Origin: Oscillospiraceae bacterium
GTDB lineage: Bacteria; Bacillota; Clostridia; Oscillospirales; Ruminococcaceae
Length of the DNA stretch: 34,751 bases
Assembly: GCA_022508925.1 (NCBI GenBank)
Contig: JAFLUF010000015.1
Span: forward strand, 1-34,751
Reading direction: 5' to 3'
The notes below the pieces were generated by a model. That model ran no database searches. It had not been told where the DNA came from and saw only the letters and a program-made list of their open reading frames with translations. The number at the start of each line of letters is the position of its first letter. Within the stretch, counting starts at the first letter, position 1. Of the stretch, positions 10,892-16,800 are shown one piece after another. Position numbers and translations under genes: made by a program.

Positions 10892-10921
10892 CGGCGCTCC
10901 GTCCTAAGACGCGGAGCGCCG
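10892..10921 (+). terminator. Terminator of the SpoIIM-like gene
   Basis: Perfect 10-base arms CGGCGCTCCG / CGGAGCGCCG are followed by a T run at 10921-10926, 7 bases after the stop codon. Confidence 0.9.
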
Positions 10922-10950
10922 TTTTTATGAATATCAGCGATATTGGCGGA

Positions 10951-11193
10951 TATAATAAAAGCCAAAATGCTTTTATTATACTGATTTAAATGCCCTCGCG
11001 CATACGCAAGCTTTCGGCTTGCTTCGTGCGTATCGGGCGATTATATCATTAATTCTTACGAATTTATGGTATAATAAAAGCATAGCTGCTTTTATTATAC
11101 GATTTAAATGCCCTCGCACATACGCAAATCTTCGATTTGCTCCGTGCGTATCGGGCGATTATACCATAAATTCTTACGAATTTATGGTATAAT
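10951..11193. repeat. Two tandem ~118-base hairpin-rich repeat units
   Basis: Unit 1 is 10951-11069 (119 bases) and unit 2 is 11070-11187 (118 bases), closed by an extra TATAAT (11188-11193). Each unit has three hairpins: (A) TATAATAAAAGC / GCTTTTATTATA around a 6-base loop; (B) a GC-rich hairpin within GCCCTCG...GTATCGGGC; (C) a 16-base arm foldback with TTAC loop, perfect in unit 2 (11158-11173 / 11178-11193). In hairpin B the 17-base core changes between units from GCAAGCTTTCGGCTTGC to GCAAATCTTCGATTTGC. Three stem positions change on both sides and pairing is kept. The array ends about 25 bases before the tRNA-Gln -35 box. No matching copy was noticed elsewhere in the window. Confidence 0.92.
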
Positions 11194-11217
11194 ATTTGGG
11201 AAAATTAAAAAAAGTAC

Positions 11218-11246
11218 TTGACAAAAAATAGGCACTGTGATATAAT
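11218..11246 (+). promoter_or_regulatory. Promoter of tRNA-Gln
   Basis: Perfect TTGACA (11218-11223), a 17-base spacer and TATAAT (11241-11246) lie 16 bases upstream of the mature tRNA. Confidence 0.93.
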
Positions 11247-11261
11247 CTTAATGTTAATCAT

Positions 11262-11336
11262 TGGGGCGTCGCCAAGCGGTAAGGCAACGGACTCTGACTC
11301 CGTCATTCGGGGGTTCAAATCCCTCTGCCCCAACCA
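11262..11336 (+). tRNA. tRNA-Gln (anticodon CUG)
   Basis: This is a 75-base class I tRNA. Acceptor TGGGGCG pairs with TGCCCCA (one G-T pair), discriminator A, encoded CCA. Anticodon stem ACGGA/TCCGT encloses loop CTCTGAC, giving CUG. The T loop is GGTTCAAATCC. Confidence 0.97.
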
Positions 11337-11375
11337 AACAAAAAAGCCTTGCGAAAGCAAGGCTTTTTTGTTTGG
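11334..11375 (+). terminator. Terminator of tRNA-Gln
   Basis: Perfect 19-base arms with a GAAA loop (11353-11356) include A-run and T-run faces, so the structure can end transcription on either strand. Its left arm overlaps the CCA end of the tRNA. Confidence 0.93.
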
Positions 11376-11377
11376 TT

Positions 11378-11496
11378 GCAAAGGGCTTCCCCGCTGCTTC
11401 GCAGCGAGGAAGCCCTTTGCTTGCGCGAATTTTTCCTTCGCCGACAGCCGTCGGCGATTTTGCTTGCTTTGCTCGCAAAACCGGAAAAAATCGCGC
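11378..11496. repeat. Nested inverted repeats (hairpin plus three-way junction)
   Basis: First, GCAAAGGGCTTCC (11378-11390) pairs with GGAAGCCCTTTGC (11408-11420), with an inner GCTGC/GCAGC stem. Second, GCGCGAATTTTTCC (11423-11436) pairs with GGAAAAAATCGCGC (11483-11496) with one mismatch. It encloses two further hairpins: TCGCCGAC/GTCGGCGA (11438-11457) and TTTTGC/GCAAAA (11458-11480). There is no convincing coding frame here. This and the next hairpin fill the gap between tRNA-Gln and the toxin gene. Confidence 0.85.
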
Positions 11497-11641: not shown

Positions 11642-11668
11642 ATAAGAAATATGATTAAGGTGTATTAT

Positions 11669-11935
11669 ATGGAGATCCGGTTTGATAAAAGAGCGAAGAA
11701 GTTTATTGAGGCACAGGACTCGTCCACAAAGCAAAGGCTCAGAAAAGGTATTGAGGGGCTTGCTCAGAAACCGCCTGTGGGCGATATTAAAACACTTCAA
11801 GGTTACTCCGACGGACGGCTCAGGCTTCGCGTCGGAAAATTCAGAATTATTTTCAGATATACTTCTGATGGGCAAATTGAAATTTTGCAGATTATGGATA
11901 TCGACAGCCGAGGGGATATTTACAAGCACAGTTAA
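11669..11935 (+). CDS. RelE/ParE-family toxin
   Basis: This 88-residue basic protein has the RelE/ParE fold pattern: N-terminal strand MEIRFDKRAKKFIEAQ, two helices (STKQRLRKGIEGLAQ), then LQGYSDGRLRLRVGKFRIIFRY and the final strand IEILQIMDIDSRGDIY. RelE members cleave ribosome-bound mRNA and ParE members poison gyrase; which applies here cannot be told. Start ATG 11669 is chosen because AAGGTG lies 6 bases upstream and the fold begins there. An in-frame ATG at 11651 would add six residues but sits almost at the transcription start. The toxin gene precedes its partner by 12 bases. Confidence 0.9.
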   Translation: MEIRFDKRAKKFIEAQDSSTKQRLRKGIEGLAQKPPVGDIKTLQGYSDGRLRLRVGKFRIIFRYTSDGQIEILQIMDIDSRGDIYKHS

Positions 11936-12456: not shown

Positions 12457-15400
12457 ATGAAAACCAAAAGCACAAACAGGTTTGTCTCTATGGCTTTGGC
12501 GCTGATAATGCTGCTGACGTGCGTTTCGTTCGGCTCGCTGTCTTTCAGTGCGAAGGCGGCTGGGACGCCCCATACTTTTGAGTCGAAGAGCATGGAAGAA
12601 GTTAAAGATTCAGGTAAATGGCAAAATGGTGATGAAGTAAAATATGATGATTATTTTACACTTCATATGAGCGCCAGCTCTAAAATTGATTCAAGTACTA
12701 AAAGCTGGAGTGACGGTTATACATCAGGCCAGAGGCTTAACTTCGGCGGTACGCCTGTAGTTACAGGTAAAGCAAGGAATGTTATGTCTTTTAAAACATC
12801 TGCGGCTGCTACCGTGAAAGTATGGTATGCATTTAACAAGACAGACCGCATGATGACAATATGGGACGCAAAAACCGGCGACGTCTATGCTGAGGTGAAA
12901 GCCGATAGTGTTACTCCTAACACAACTGACGGTTTTTACTGGGAAACAAAAGTTGAAAAGGGCGAATACTATCTTGGAGCATCTCCAAACAGCAACTACA
13001 TTTTCAAGGTAGAAGTAACCGAAGAGGATTCCGAGCCTGTTGAGACTAAGGATTATACTATAACGGGCGAGCAGCTTTATACTCAGCTCAAAGACAACGT
13101 TACCGAATCCCTTGCAAAGATAACAGAAACTGTTAAATCGGGCACAAGCAACTATTTTACGATTTACTGGGATAAGGGCAGAGTTAATACAGATGATGAG
13201 AAGAATCGTGTCACGTTTGATGACGATTATAGCTCTCTTTATTCTTTTGACTTTAACGGCTATACCCGTACCAGTGACGAAAGCGGAAACAATTATCCCT
13301 GCAGACTTATTGAGTTTACTGCGGAGGATAAGGGCTACATAAAGATCTGGTGGAAAGCTGGCGGTGCCGGCAACGGACAGGAAGGCGCAAACGTGGGCAG
13401 ATATGTCCAGCTGTACTCCAAGACGGACGGAAAGGCTGTCAGGATAACGGACGCCGTAACCGACAAAGCAACCAGCGGATGTTACGTTTCTACTCTTACG
13501 TTTAGCGATGCCGGAACATACTATATAGGTACTCCTAACGGAACCTGCTCTTTCTACAAGATAGTTGTAACAGAGGGCGAGCTTCCCGAGATACCCCGCA
13601 CCGATTGGAAAGACATTGCTACTCCCGTTATAACTGAGGCAAAGGACGACGGCAGCGGCAAGATAATTGTTACCGTAAATGCTGACGTAAGCGATCTTGG
13701 CGGTGACAGTGTAACCGTTACCATGAAGGACTCAAATGGAGAAAAGATTGCTTCTAAGAGCTCTTCCAGCAGCAAGAAAGACAACTTACACACGTTTGAG
13801 TTTGAACCAACCGATTCGGGTACATACACCTTTACGGCGGCTCTGTCCCGAAAAGATGACAAGGATGGAAACAAGTTTGATGATAAGGTGAGCGCAGATG
13901 TAAATGCTTCGTTCTCTCTCCCCCTCGGCACACCCACTGTCGTCAGAGTTACCAGTAAGGGTGCAGGCGCTATTGAGATAGTTTGGGACGAGGTTAAAGA
14001 AGCTGACAGCTACACGATAGACGTGTACAAGGTCAGTGAAAACGCGCGCGCTATAGGCGGCGAATTTGTTAAATCGATACCCGGCATAAAGACCACAAAG
14101 TACACCGTTGAGGGTCTTGATGTAGGTTCAAATTACATCTTCAGAGTAGCTGCGGTTCGCGGCGACGAAACAACCTTTTCTGAAGAGTCAGAAGAAACAA
14201 CCGCTACTCCGGAAGCGCAGACTAAATGGTTCTATAACTACTTCGGTTCCGGTAGCAGCCTTGGCAAAAACTGCGGTTATGAAGAAAACGAGAACGGAAC
14301 CGTTACGGTATGGTCTGAAAATGGCGGCGGAAAATTAAACTCAAGCGGTGCTGATGGATTGTCGGCATACTATACCACAGTCTCTACGTCTGATCACTTT
14401 ACATTCCGCGCCAAGGTTCACGTTGACAGCGCAATCTACAATTCTCAGAGCGGCTTTGGTCTTTTCGCGCTTGACCATATGCCTGCAAAGAATGCGAATC
14501 CCGGAAATACGAACGAGTATTTCGTTGCTGCTTCTAAGATCGAGTATTATTATAACGATGAAGCCGATGAGGAATACAACATGGACAAGATCGGCAGCAG
14601 TATCAAAATGCATTTTGGTATCAGCGCGTGGTATAAGCACGGATACAATACCTTGGCAGAGACGAGTGCCGGATTCGCGACCGAAAACATCGAGTTATAT
14701 CCGTTGGAAACCTCTGCAAAGGGTAAGGGCACAGGTACTTATAACATAGTAGGCAATACCACCGGTTTGGAAGCAAGCTGTGAGCGGATCAATGAACTCA
14801 CTGATTTCATTTTTGAGATCGTAAGAAACAACACAGGTTATTTCCTGTCTTATTACACTGCTGACGGCGTTCTCGTAAGCACCAAGAAGTTCTACGATAC
14901 CGAAGCGCTCAGCCTTACCGATCCCGATAATGTTTATATCGGCTACTTTGCCGCAAGAGATGCTCGCGCGACTTTCGAGCTTATAGAGCTTAATGTTATC
15001 CCCGCGGATGAGGACGACTCTCCTGTTGAGGAAAGACCTATCAAGAAGATTACTCCTATCGTATCGATTGCTTCTGCTACTTCTTCCGCAAACACCCCCA
15101 ACTACGAGCTGCTTTTCAATGCGAATGTAGCGGGTACAGCGGATATTTACAGAGACGGTAAGTTGGTCGTTTCCGGCGTAAGCGTAGACGGATCCGATGA
15201 TTATACCGCTGTAACGGTAACGCTCGAGCAGGGTTATAACAGCATCGAAGTTATATTTTATCCCGATCCTGACCAGACTTTGCCCGAGTACACTACGCTC
15301 GCGTCGACCGAACCTGTATCGAAGCCGTTCAGAATAAGATACAGCACGGCTTACGAGAGTCTTAACAATCTCTATGTTTCGCCTAACGGTCTGAGCACCA

Positions 15401-16800
15401 ACAACGGCACAAAGGCGTCTCCGCTCAACATCTTTACCGCGATAAAGGTAGTACAGCCCGGTCAGAAGATAATTCTTATGGAGGGCACATACAAGCTCTA
15501 TGAGCAGCTTCTTATCGAGCGCGGTATGGACGGAACGGCTGAGGCTCCCATTTATATGATAGCCGATCCCGATGCTAAGTCGCGCCCGGTATTCGACTTC
15601 CAGGGCAAAAAGGGCGGAATCAAGCTCGGCGGCAGCTATTGGTATTTAAAGGGCTTTGATGTTACAAACGCAGGCGAAAAAACTCCCGGATTTATCGTAT
15701 CCGGAAATAACAACATACTTGACGATATCGTTACTCACCACAATACAGACACAGGTATCTATATCAAGGCGTACAGAGACACCAACGATCCCAAGAGCTA
15801 CTGGCCCAAGGATAACCTAATTCTCAACTGCACGTCTCATAATAACTGTGATTCCACTATGAATGACGCTGACGGATTTGCTGCTAAGCTTACCTGCGGC
15901 GCAGGCAATGTATTTGACGGCTGTATAGCTTATAACAACATTGACGACGGATGGGATCTGTATACAAAACCTACGAGTGGTCCTATCGGAGAGGTTACTA
16001 TCAAAAACTGCGTAGCTTATAACAATGGTTTCCTTGAGGGCGACAACGGTACAGGTGAAGGTAATGGATTTAAGATGGGCGGCGAAAACATCTCTGTTGC
16101 GCATGTAATCGAAAACTGCATATCCTTTAACAACAGAGGAAGCGGCTTTACAAGCAACAACAATCCTGCTGTAACCTTTAAGAACTGCACATCGTATAAC
16201 AACACTAAAAATAATATCAATCTTGTTTCAGGCTCGGTTGTAAGCAACACCAACTGGACTGTAAGCGGATACATCGGCTTCAGCGACAACGGTGAGACAG
16301 GTATCGACGCTCGCGACTTAAAGGGTACTCAGGTAAGAGCTGATGTTGAAAACAACACCAACTACTTCTGGAACGGCTCCAAGAGCCTGAACACCATCGG
16401 TTCTTCCGGTGTGGCTACGGCTGCTCTCAGCGCCGATGTTCCCGAGATCACCGCCGATATGTTCGTATCGCTTAACTTCAAGGGCAGCATAGCTCGCTAT
16501 GAAGACGGAACCATCAATATGGAAGGCTTCCTTGAGCTTGATGATACAAAGGCTCCTCTGGATTCGGGCGCGAGATTTACGAGGACAATGTCTGAGACAC
16601 CCCCTGAAATCGATATAGTTCCCGATCCCGAGATTCCTGAATCAGACAGTCCTTCGTCTTCGTCTTCTTCTTCGTTTAATCCCGGCAGCAACGATCCCGC
16701 GCCTCCTACCGGCGTAGAGTTTACATTCGTAATATTCACGATTGTAATCTCCGCGGCTGCTGCTATCGTTTTCTTCAAAAAGCGCAGAAGCAGTAAGTAA
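12457..16800 (+). CDS. Cell-surface pectate lyase (polysaccharide lyase family 9) with multi-domain N-terminus
   Basis: This 1447-residue secreted enzyme should cleave polygalacturonate by beta-elimination. A signal peptide (1-34, SFSAKA then cleavage) is followed by two related beta-sandwich modules (about 38-190 and 197-375). The modules end in EYYLGASPNSNYIFKVEVTEE and TYYIGTPNGTCSFYKIVVTEG. A fibronectin III domain follows (about 492-587), then a jelly-roll-like module (589-850), an Ig-like segment (860-965) and a right-handed beta-helix from residue 972 (LYVSPNGLSTNNGTKASPL). PL9 signatures are complete: calcium-site Asp1139 in DADGFAAKL, Asp1163, Asp1164 and Asp1167 in DDGWDLY, and the catalytic-base Lys1206 in GNGFKMGG. 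A Ser-rich linker precedes APPTG (1415-1419), a membrane helix and KKRRSSK, a sortase-type anchor with Ala in place of Leu. AGGAGG precedes ATG 12457. Confidence 0.95.
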   Translation: MKTKSTNRFVSMALALIMLLTCVSFGSLSFSAKAAGTPHTFESKSMEEVKDSGKWQNGDEVKYDDYFTLHMSASSKIDSSTKSWSDGYTSGQRLNFGGTPVVTGKARNVMSFKTSAAATVKVWYAFNKTDRMMTIWDAKTGDVYAEVKADSVTPNTTDGFYWETKVEKGEYYLGASPNSNYIFKVEVTEEDSEPVETKDYTITGEQLYTQLKDNVTESLAKITETVKSGTSNYFTIYWDKGRVNTDDEKNRVTFDDDYSSLYSFDFNGYTRTSDESGNNYPCRLIEFTAEDKGYIKIWWKAGGAGNGQEGANVGRYVQLYSKTDGKAVRITDAVTDKATSGCYVSTLTFSDAGTYYIGTPNGTCSFYKIVVTEGELPEIPRTDWKDIATPVITEAKDDGSGKIIVTVNADVSDLGGDSVTVTMKDSNGEKIASKSSSSSKKDNLHTFEFEPTDSGTYTFTAALSRKDDKDGNKFDDKVSADVNASFSLPLGTPTVVRVTSKGAGAIEIVWDEVKEADSYTIDVYKVSENARAIGGEFVKSIPGIKTTKYTVEGLDVGSNYIFRVAAVRGDETTFSEESEETTATPEAQTKWFYNYFGSGSSLGKNCGYEENENGTVTVWSENGGGKLNSSGADGLSAYYTTVSTSDHFTFRAKVHVDSAIYNSQSGFGLFALDHMPAKNANPGNTNEYFVAASKIEYYYNDEADEEYNMDKIGSSIKMHFGISAWYKHGYNTLAETSAGFATENIELYPLETSAKGKGTGTYNIVGNTTGLEASCERINELTDFIFEIVRNNTGYFLSYYTADGVLVSTKKFYDTEALSLTDPDNVYIGYFAARDARATFELIELNVIPADEDDSPVEERPIKKITPIVSIASATSSANTPNYELLFNANVAGTADIYRDGKLVVSGVSVDGSDDYTAVTVTLEQGYNSIEVIFYPDPDQTLPEYTTLASTEPVSKPFRIRYSTAYESLNNLYVSPNGLSTNNGTKASPLNIFTAIKVVQPGQKIILMEGTYKLYEQLLIERGMDGTAEAPIYMIADPDAKSRPVFDFQGKKGGIKLGGSYWYLKGFDVTNAGEKTPGFIVSGNNNILDDIVTHHNTDTGIYIKAYRDTNDPKSYWPKDNLILNCTSHNNCDSTMNDADGFAAKLTCGAGNVFDGCIAYNNIDDGWDLYTKPTSGPIGEVTIKNCVAYNNGFLEGDNGTGEGNGFKMGGENISVAHVIENCISFNNRGSGFTSNNNPAVTFKNCTSYNNTKNNINLVSGSVVSNTNWTVSGYIGFSDNGETGIDARDLKGTQVRADVENNTNYFWNGSKSLNTIGSSGVATAALSADVPEITADMFVSLNFKGSIARYEDGTINMEGFLELDDTKAPLDSGARFTRTMSETPPEIDIVPDPEIPESDSPSSSSSSSFNPGSNDPAPPTGVEFTFVIFTIVISAAAAIVFFKKRRSSK

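Follow-up and report, generated by a model that had tools for sequence, protein, structure and literature searches.

Tandem units upstream of tRNA-Gln

We analyzed a 34,751-nt stretch of DNA (the window) from the draft assembly of an Oscillospiraceae bacterium (genome G000; 2.18 Mb, 136 contigs). Positions 10951–11193, upstream of the gene for tRNA-Gln, hold two direct-repeat units with three hairpins each. TATAAT stands at the start of each unit (10951 and 11070, a spacing of 119 nt) and a further TATAAT at 11188–11193 closes the array, followed by the tRNA promoter. This organization had been put forward in a preliminary description of the locus and is borne out by the sequence and its predicted folds. 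The features are:

10949–10956, plus strand: left direct repeat of unit 1 (GATATAAT), the -10-like target before insertion (orthologous empty sites)
10957–11075, plus strand: inserted body of unit 1, ending in TATGGTATAAT (direct repeat families D1 and D2)
10951–10980, plus strand: hairpin 1 of unit 1, arms 10951–10962 and 10969–10980 (inverted repeat I6, 100%; fold)
10992–11038, plus strand: central hairpin H2 of unit 1, GCCC...GGGC with internal loops (fold; family-wide covarying pairs)
11040–11075, plus strand: hairpin 3 of unit 1, inner arm mostly complementary to the terminal -10 copy (fold; alignment A1)
11076–11193, plus strand: inserted body of unit 2, ending in TATGGTATAAT (match to covariance model R1)
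11070–11099, plus strand: hairpin 1 of unit 2, whose 5' arm begins with the terminal -10 copy of unit 1 (inverted repeat I4; fold)
11110–11156, plus strand: central hairpin H2 of unit 2 (fold)
11158–11193, plus strand: hairpin 3 of unit 2, a perfect 16-bp palindrome ending in GGTATAAT (inverted repeat I5, 100% complementary)
11218–11246, plus strand: tRNA-Gln promoter, TTGACA-N17-TATAAT (sequence; same promoter kind in relatives)
11262–11336: tRNA-Gln, downstream of its own promoter

The predicted folds have energies of -46.5 kcal/mol (z -6.8) for unit 1 and -50.1 kcal/mol (z -9.1) for unit 2, and for neither unit was any of 200 dinucleotide shuffles as stable. The covariance model R1 matches unit 1 at 10946–11075 (112.9 bits, E 1.1e-17) and unit 2 at 11065–11193 (129.7 bits, E 7.8e-21). 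The hairpin cores of the two units, GCAAGCTTTCGGCTTGC and GCAAATCTTCGATTTGC, differ at positions 5, 6, 7, 12, and 13. Three positions had been described as altered on both arms with the pairing kept; this holds for two pairs (G-C to A-T and C-G to T-A), whereas position 7 changed on one side only (T.G to C-G).

The tRNA-Gln promoter, with TTGACA at 11218–11223 and TATAAT at 11241–11246, is intact and separate from the units, and the same kind of promoter precedes tRNA-Gln in L278–L281 and L283. The target in the window is a weak -10-like site upstream of this promoter; 17 nt upstream of the left repeat of unit 1, the match to TTGACA is 3/6. Most likely, the pair of units arose either by tandem duplication or by insertion of a second element at the -10 box belonging to the first. 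In another tandem pair, L141 (657–780 and the adjoining unit), the hairpin 1 inner arm common to both units fits TAGAAT and the -10 of the second unit is TATAAT; the shared TAGAAT-type arm points to duplication of the whole unit at that locus.

Downstream of the array, a perfect 22-bp inverted repeat (11331–11378) begins within the 3' end of tRNA-Gln and is perhaps its terminator. Farther on lie a small ORF (11663–11932) with a match to ParE_toxin (7e-08) and a gene for a 1447-aa protein (12457–16800) with matches to fn3 and right-handed beta-helix.

A dispersed family of repeats

Using blastn, we found the unit at 20 places of G000 outside the window (E<1e-7); about half of these are cut at contig ends, and some may be halves of one copy. 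Copies were collected with nhmmer and then with R1, an earlier extraction by regular expression having given only four. Alignment A1 comprises thirty complete copies. The consensus structure has 38 pairs, 20 of which show at least one double change that preserves the pair.

At E≤0.001, R1 detected the element in 27 of 61 genomes, namely 25 of the 37 genomes of the genus, where G013 counts on the sister form L074 only, and 2 of the 24 genomes outside it; the matches per genome include some antisense hits on the same copy. At E≤1e-6, 295 genomes sampled from the order included 25 carriers, and 391 from the class included 14; these are lower bounds from draws that overlap, include G000, and were filtered more strictly. 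The named carriers are assemblies of uncultured Clostridia and Oscillospiraceae, including one from the colon of a water deer. The preliminary description had proposed a covariance-model search across Clostridia genomes and a copy count in the parent genome, with a chance local duplication as the alternative outcome. Both have now been carried out, and the unit recurs in its own genome as well as elsewhere in the genus, order, and class, which is more than chance.

In other families of the order and class, the sequence of H2 is mostly different, and the order of parts is kept in most of the copies shown, running from TGNTATAAT through hairpin, complement, H2, complement, and hairpin to TGNTATAAT. 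The exceptions, L074 (52–187), L249 (1501–1641), and L255 (1501–1629), represent a sister form with a similar H2 and different terminal hairpins, whose arms in L255 are like ATAGCAAACG...CGTTTGCTAT. Judged by eye, the copies in L074 and L255 lie downstream of a TATAAT and not on it. H2 and the element ends may evolve as modules. No match was found in 50,697 phage records at E 0.01, and viral contigs contained no exact match to an H2 pattern. Genome G036 has five partial copies, which we considered as ends of a longer autonomous element; all five sit at contig ends, and this candidate was dropped.

Empty and filled alleles

A search of relatives with the joined flanks concerned 19 loci, 11 of which were inspected. 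An uninterrupted relative exists for L125, L040, L124, L123, L130, L149, L126, L003, and L015, with 67–100% identity across the joint; the flanks of L015 also gave a two-piece match in G006. For 10 of the 19 loci, no clean empty site was among those inspected. The counterpart of L109 in G000 is a deletion remnant, and only one flank of L008 aligned. The joined flanks of L097 had matches spanning the joint at 69% identity in G006 and G000. The start of tmRNA, found in 25 of 32 loci, offered a further comparison. Its promoter is empty in G007, carries the element in G002, G005, G000, and G006, and carries a deletion remnant in G010. The window locus itself is empty in G007 (L280, GGAAATAATATT) and G005 (L281, GGAAATAATAAT), where GGAAATAAT takes the place of GGATATAAT plus the two units of G000. 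Both relatives share the same upstream gene end (by eye), a similar terminator region, and the tRNA-Gln promoter.

Empty orthologous sites therefore exist at eleven loci in all, nine from the joined flanks together with the tmRNA promoter and the window locus, and they establish insertion. Where the comparison is clean, adding the element to the empty allele gives the filled one, in which a -10 box stands on either side. At three loci, the filled left end is TATAAT and the empty -10 differs, being TAGAAT at L040 (in two relatives), TACAAT at L003, and TATACT at L015; the alternatives are an ancestral TATAAT and a later change of the left copy. The comparisons demonstrate copies that are dispersed, that have empty counterparts, that were inserted at a -10 box, and that have a -10 copy on both sides. 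Among the roles suggested earlier for the units, that of a mobile palindromic element is the one upheld by the dispersed copies and the eleven empty loci, and we consider it very likely that the units are a mobile element found at -10 boxes.

Two loci retain the left -10 and hairpin 1 with the remainder deleted, namely L168, which is the tmRNA promoter of G010, and L211, the ortholog of L109 in G000. These remnants show decay following insertion.

Association with promoters

For the analysis of promoters we took 100 R1 matches from 90 fetched sources and kept 78, after removing 7 orthologous duplicates, 6 antisense matches, 4 tandem copies, 4 with a short left flank, and 1 containing N (22 together). 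Exactly 17 nt before the left TATAAT, TTGACA is matched at 5/6 positions or better in 47 of the 78 copies and at 4/6 or better in 59, leaving 19, the window's included, below 4/6. Spacers of 16 and 18 nt gave no match of at least 5/6 in 78 copies each, and none and one, respectively, of at least 4/6. The mean match was 4.41 at spacer 17 versus 1.05–2.04 at the other spacers from 5 to 44.

As a control, a -35 of at least 5/6 precedes 36 of 99 TGNTATAAT sites outside the element and 62 of 427 TATAAT sites; the -10 motif explains part, but not all, of the -35 enrichment. Furthermore, N17 is the chief spacing of non-element promoters in the fetched DNA as well (107 of 153 spacer counts, some homologous promoters being retained). 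Because other promoters are mostly N17 and TGNTATAAT sites are often promoters anyway, the strict 17-bp spacing becomes a weaker argument for targeting guided by RNA polymerase.

Wherever a -35 is seen, the element has the promoter's own orientation, and the -35 and -10 of the host promoter remain together beside the element. A ribosome-binding site with an ORF start occurs within 260 nt downstream of 28 of 70 copies and divergently upstream of 15 of 77; proximity to a downstream ORF start is a weak tendency only. Such a strong promoter association could also reflect a host regulatory element or a protein-binding array, the latter already listed as a possible role of the units, placed at promoters by selection. 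However, the positions vary between related genomes with clean empty alleles, and the targets are mixed, including tmRNA, a tRNA recognized by eye, and assorted coding genes. The empty sites largely refute this explanation unless the targets form a shared regulon, and we consider it very improbable.

Agreement between target, ends, and hairpin arms

In each terminal hairpin, a -10 copy is paired with a complement internal to the element. We compared the ends in the 58 of 78 copies in which both were usable, using a filter for hairpin 3 arms that agree at 7 or more of 10 positions; expected values come from shuffles confined to three coarse genome groups. Left and right carry the same base immediately before TATAAT in 43 of 58 copies (28.3 expected, p≤5e-5). 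The inner arm of hairpin 1 fits the left end in 32 of 58 (22.5 expected, p 0.0015), and that of hairpin 3 fits the right end in 57 of 58, a count that the filter favors.

Four copies are particularly informative. The unusual target of L125, TTGTATAAT, appears in the empty site, at both ends and, complemented, in the inner arm of hairpin 3. In L149, the A of the target recurs at either end and in the inner arms of hairpins 1 and 3. L120 carries C at both ends, the right following the left, and the usual, unchanged inner arm. In L130, the A of the target, present in both empty sites, is found on the left and in hairpin 1, and the right end and hairpin 3 have G. All four of these copies can be accounted for if insertion duplicates about NTATAAT and one hairpin arm is then corrected against the other, in either direction; the choice of the target by a complement borne by the element accounts for two or three of them.

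By inspection of A1, the tips of the body lack terminal inverted repeats, AAAAGC/AATCGC on the left being unrelated to the inward right tip ATTATACC. One possibility is that a DDE transposase mobilizes the element as a miniature transposon and leaves an ordinary target-site duplication, some 6–8 bp long. Direct repeats of (N)TATAAT flank the body, L120 resembles a fresh duplication, and the portion of PMC3049150 that deals with duplications gives them as typical of miniature inverted-repeat elements (MITEs). Yet the same picture of an (N)TATAAT copy at both ends would come from a copy borne by the element. In addition to the missing terminal inverted repeats, the target complements lying inside the element and the failure of L130 to repeat the base of its target contradict this reading, which we judge unlikely.

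DNA hairpins, RNA structure, and the origin of covariation

If pairing were kept at the level of RNA, G.U pairs would be expected to outnumber A.C pairs. On an alignment that was itself fitted to the structure, the ratio of G.T to A.C mismatched pairs was 52:38 in all and 37:36 after removal of one pair at the base of H2. By hairpin, the ratios were 14:11 for hairpin 1, 29:14 for H2, where 15 of the G.T pairs come from one basal position, and 9:13 for hairpin 3. The mismatched pairs have no bias toward an RNA strand.

A small RNA or 5' leader held by selection on RNA pairing, as the preliminary description had also envisaged, would agree with the pair-preserving double changes, with the stable folds, and with the asymmetric internal loops of H2, which persist in most copies. 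The near-balanced mismatches speak against it, with no clear G.U excess in hairpins 1 and 3 and an excess in H2 owed mostly to the one basal pair. Moreover, hairpin 1 overlaps the -10 with its 5' arm, which would precede the expected start of transcription, and a transcript from that promoter should therefore not form this hairpin. Rfam at gathering scores reported nothing in the window besides the two tRNAs, and copies are present or absent between related genomes. We regard a structured RNA as highly unlikely. The best sub-threshold Rfam hit over 10900–11260, lactis-plasmid RNA, was rejected at 28.6 bits versus a cut-off of 70.

The matched arms can also be explained by mutation. In 4 of 86 copies (L015, L096, L112, and L144), the TCC side of H2 has been swapped for the exact complement of the opposite arm, and the replacement in L015 complements that copy's own variant arm. 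Similarly, the orthologous copies L002 and L105 differ at a single site (1 of 126 nt), and the difference restores the pair with the unusual target TACAAT. Template switching between inverted repeats, which matches their arms, is described as an established mechanism in the relevant part of PMC8794818. With such a quasipalindrome mark in H2, arm covariation can arise by mutation and is no proof of selected RNA structure. Selection for structure is therefore not a safe reading of the covariation noted earlier.

Whether the arms are matched by quasipalindrome template switching, with little or no selection on pairing, is in our view evenly balanced, and such matching would be compatible with mobility. 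This explanation has to face the persistence of the internal loops of H2, an architecture kept across the class, something that calls for constraint or for functional masters that go on being copied, and six orthologous copy pairs (1, 2, 7, 0, 1, and 1 differing sites) in which no base pair changed on both sides.

A model for the element and its movement

Overall, we consider the units likely to represent a non-autonomous mobile element of about 120 bp with DNA hairpins, situated at promoter -10 boxes. Its anatomy is target -10, small hairpin, target complement, H2, target complement, small hairpin, and -10 copy. Insertion would occur directly 3' of the -10 box (mostly TGNTATAAT), and the element ends in a second copy of the box; insertion 5' of the -10 would look alike for the six letters, but what precedes the right -10 is in most cases element sequence. 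The host promoter would still be used, and its transcripts would now begin within hairpin 1 and read through the element.

On the analogy of IS608, we tentatively propose a guide mechanism in which the element moves as folded single-stranded DNA and its internal -10 complements pair with the target and with the ends. A trans-acting enzyme would mobilize it, perhaps into the melted -10 strand of active promoters, and the arms may be kept matched in part by template-switch (quasipalindrome) correction. More speculatively still, and with some doubt, the element could represent a class of mobile DNA whose own folded single strand base-pairs with the melted -10 strand, which rebuilds the -10 at its opposite end and thereby spares the host promoter, and whose internal complements adopt the sequence of each new target.

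The enzyme search covered Y1_Tnp only, in draft genomes that may hide an autonomous copy. Of the 25 genomes of the genus searched, 18 are carriers and 7 are not; Y1_Tnp was found in 3 and 1 of these, respectively, which amounts to no association in drafts that may be incomplete. It was not found in the drafts of G001, G005, G007, G010, G012, and G022, nor in that of G042 from another family. By eye, no transposase was recognized beside the copies among the 14 largest clusters of flanking ORFs, the largest of which (5 loci) looks like an ABC transporter ATPase. Mobilization of a REP-like element by a Y1 transposase of the IS200/IS605 or RAYT type would agree with insertion 3' of a retained target and with the placement of hairpins beside sequences complementary to the cleavage site, as the IS608 sections of PMC5934647 describe. 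Given that Y1_Tnp was not found in 15 of the 18 genus carriers searched, all drafts, we hold this to be improbable.

The -10 box comprises the most essential six bases of a promoter; an element that hits it and yet leaves a copy on each side would explain how one genome can hold many promoter insertions, including the one at tmRNA. If transcribed, the element lengthens host transcripts by leaders of about 120 nt. Natural filled and empty alleles make it possible to test the open promoter complex as a target of transposition, as well as the share of template switching in the apparent compensatory evolution of palindromes.

Comparison with known mobile repeats

According to the part of PMC5934647 that treats target recognition, IS608 inserts 3' of a retained tetranucleotide, and short guides near its hairpins pair with the cleavage and target sites. 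The present element resembles IS608 and the IS200/IS605 family in the target kept in the left flank, as the empty sites confirm, in insertion precisely on its 3' side, in terminal hairpins without terminal inverted repeats, and in short sequences that pair with the target. In contrast to IS608, its complement, placed on the inner side of each hairpin, is Watson-Crick and up to about 8 nt long. It also targets the promoter -10 and has no internal transposase gene, and Y1_Tnp was not found in most carriers searched.

Bacterial MITEs such as Correia, RUP, BOX, and SPRITE are, in the excerpts of PMC3049150 and PMC10969869 that concern them, small, dispersed, palindromic, and non-autonomous, many of them flanked by duplications. 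The present element is likewise small, palindromic, and non-autonomous, its dispersed copies being present or absent at the same site between genomes, but it has no terminal inverted repeats and its -10 target recurs at the opposite end. Correia either brings promoters with it or was found just downstream of one (PMC10969869, same excerpt), and neither excerpt describes a -10 target. REP/REPIN sequences with their RAYT partners likewise consist of folded palindromic DNA that is dispersed and sometimes arranged in arrays, as far as partial accounts of them go. The present element differs in having three hairpins and about 120 bp, and a Y1/RAYT partner was not found in most carriers searched; no GTAG/CGTC tag was noticed at the element ends in A1. 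Among the open-access papers listed, we noticed no description of an element aimed at the -10 box.

The element would therefore work like a guide-paired single-strand transposon and look like a MITE. By its ends it departs from MITEs, and by the Y1_Tnp results in the carriers searched it departs from both IS200/IS605 and REP/RAYT. In a comparison that leaves aside the stem-loop families reported earlier from other Clostridium species (PMC2267715, in part), we place it among the small non-autonomous mobile repeats, as a new form.
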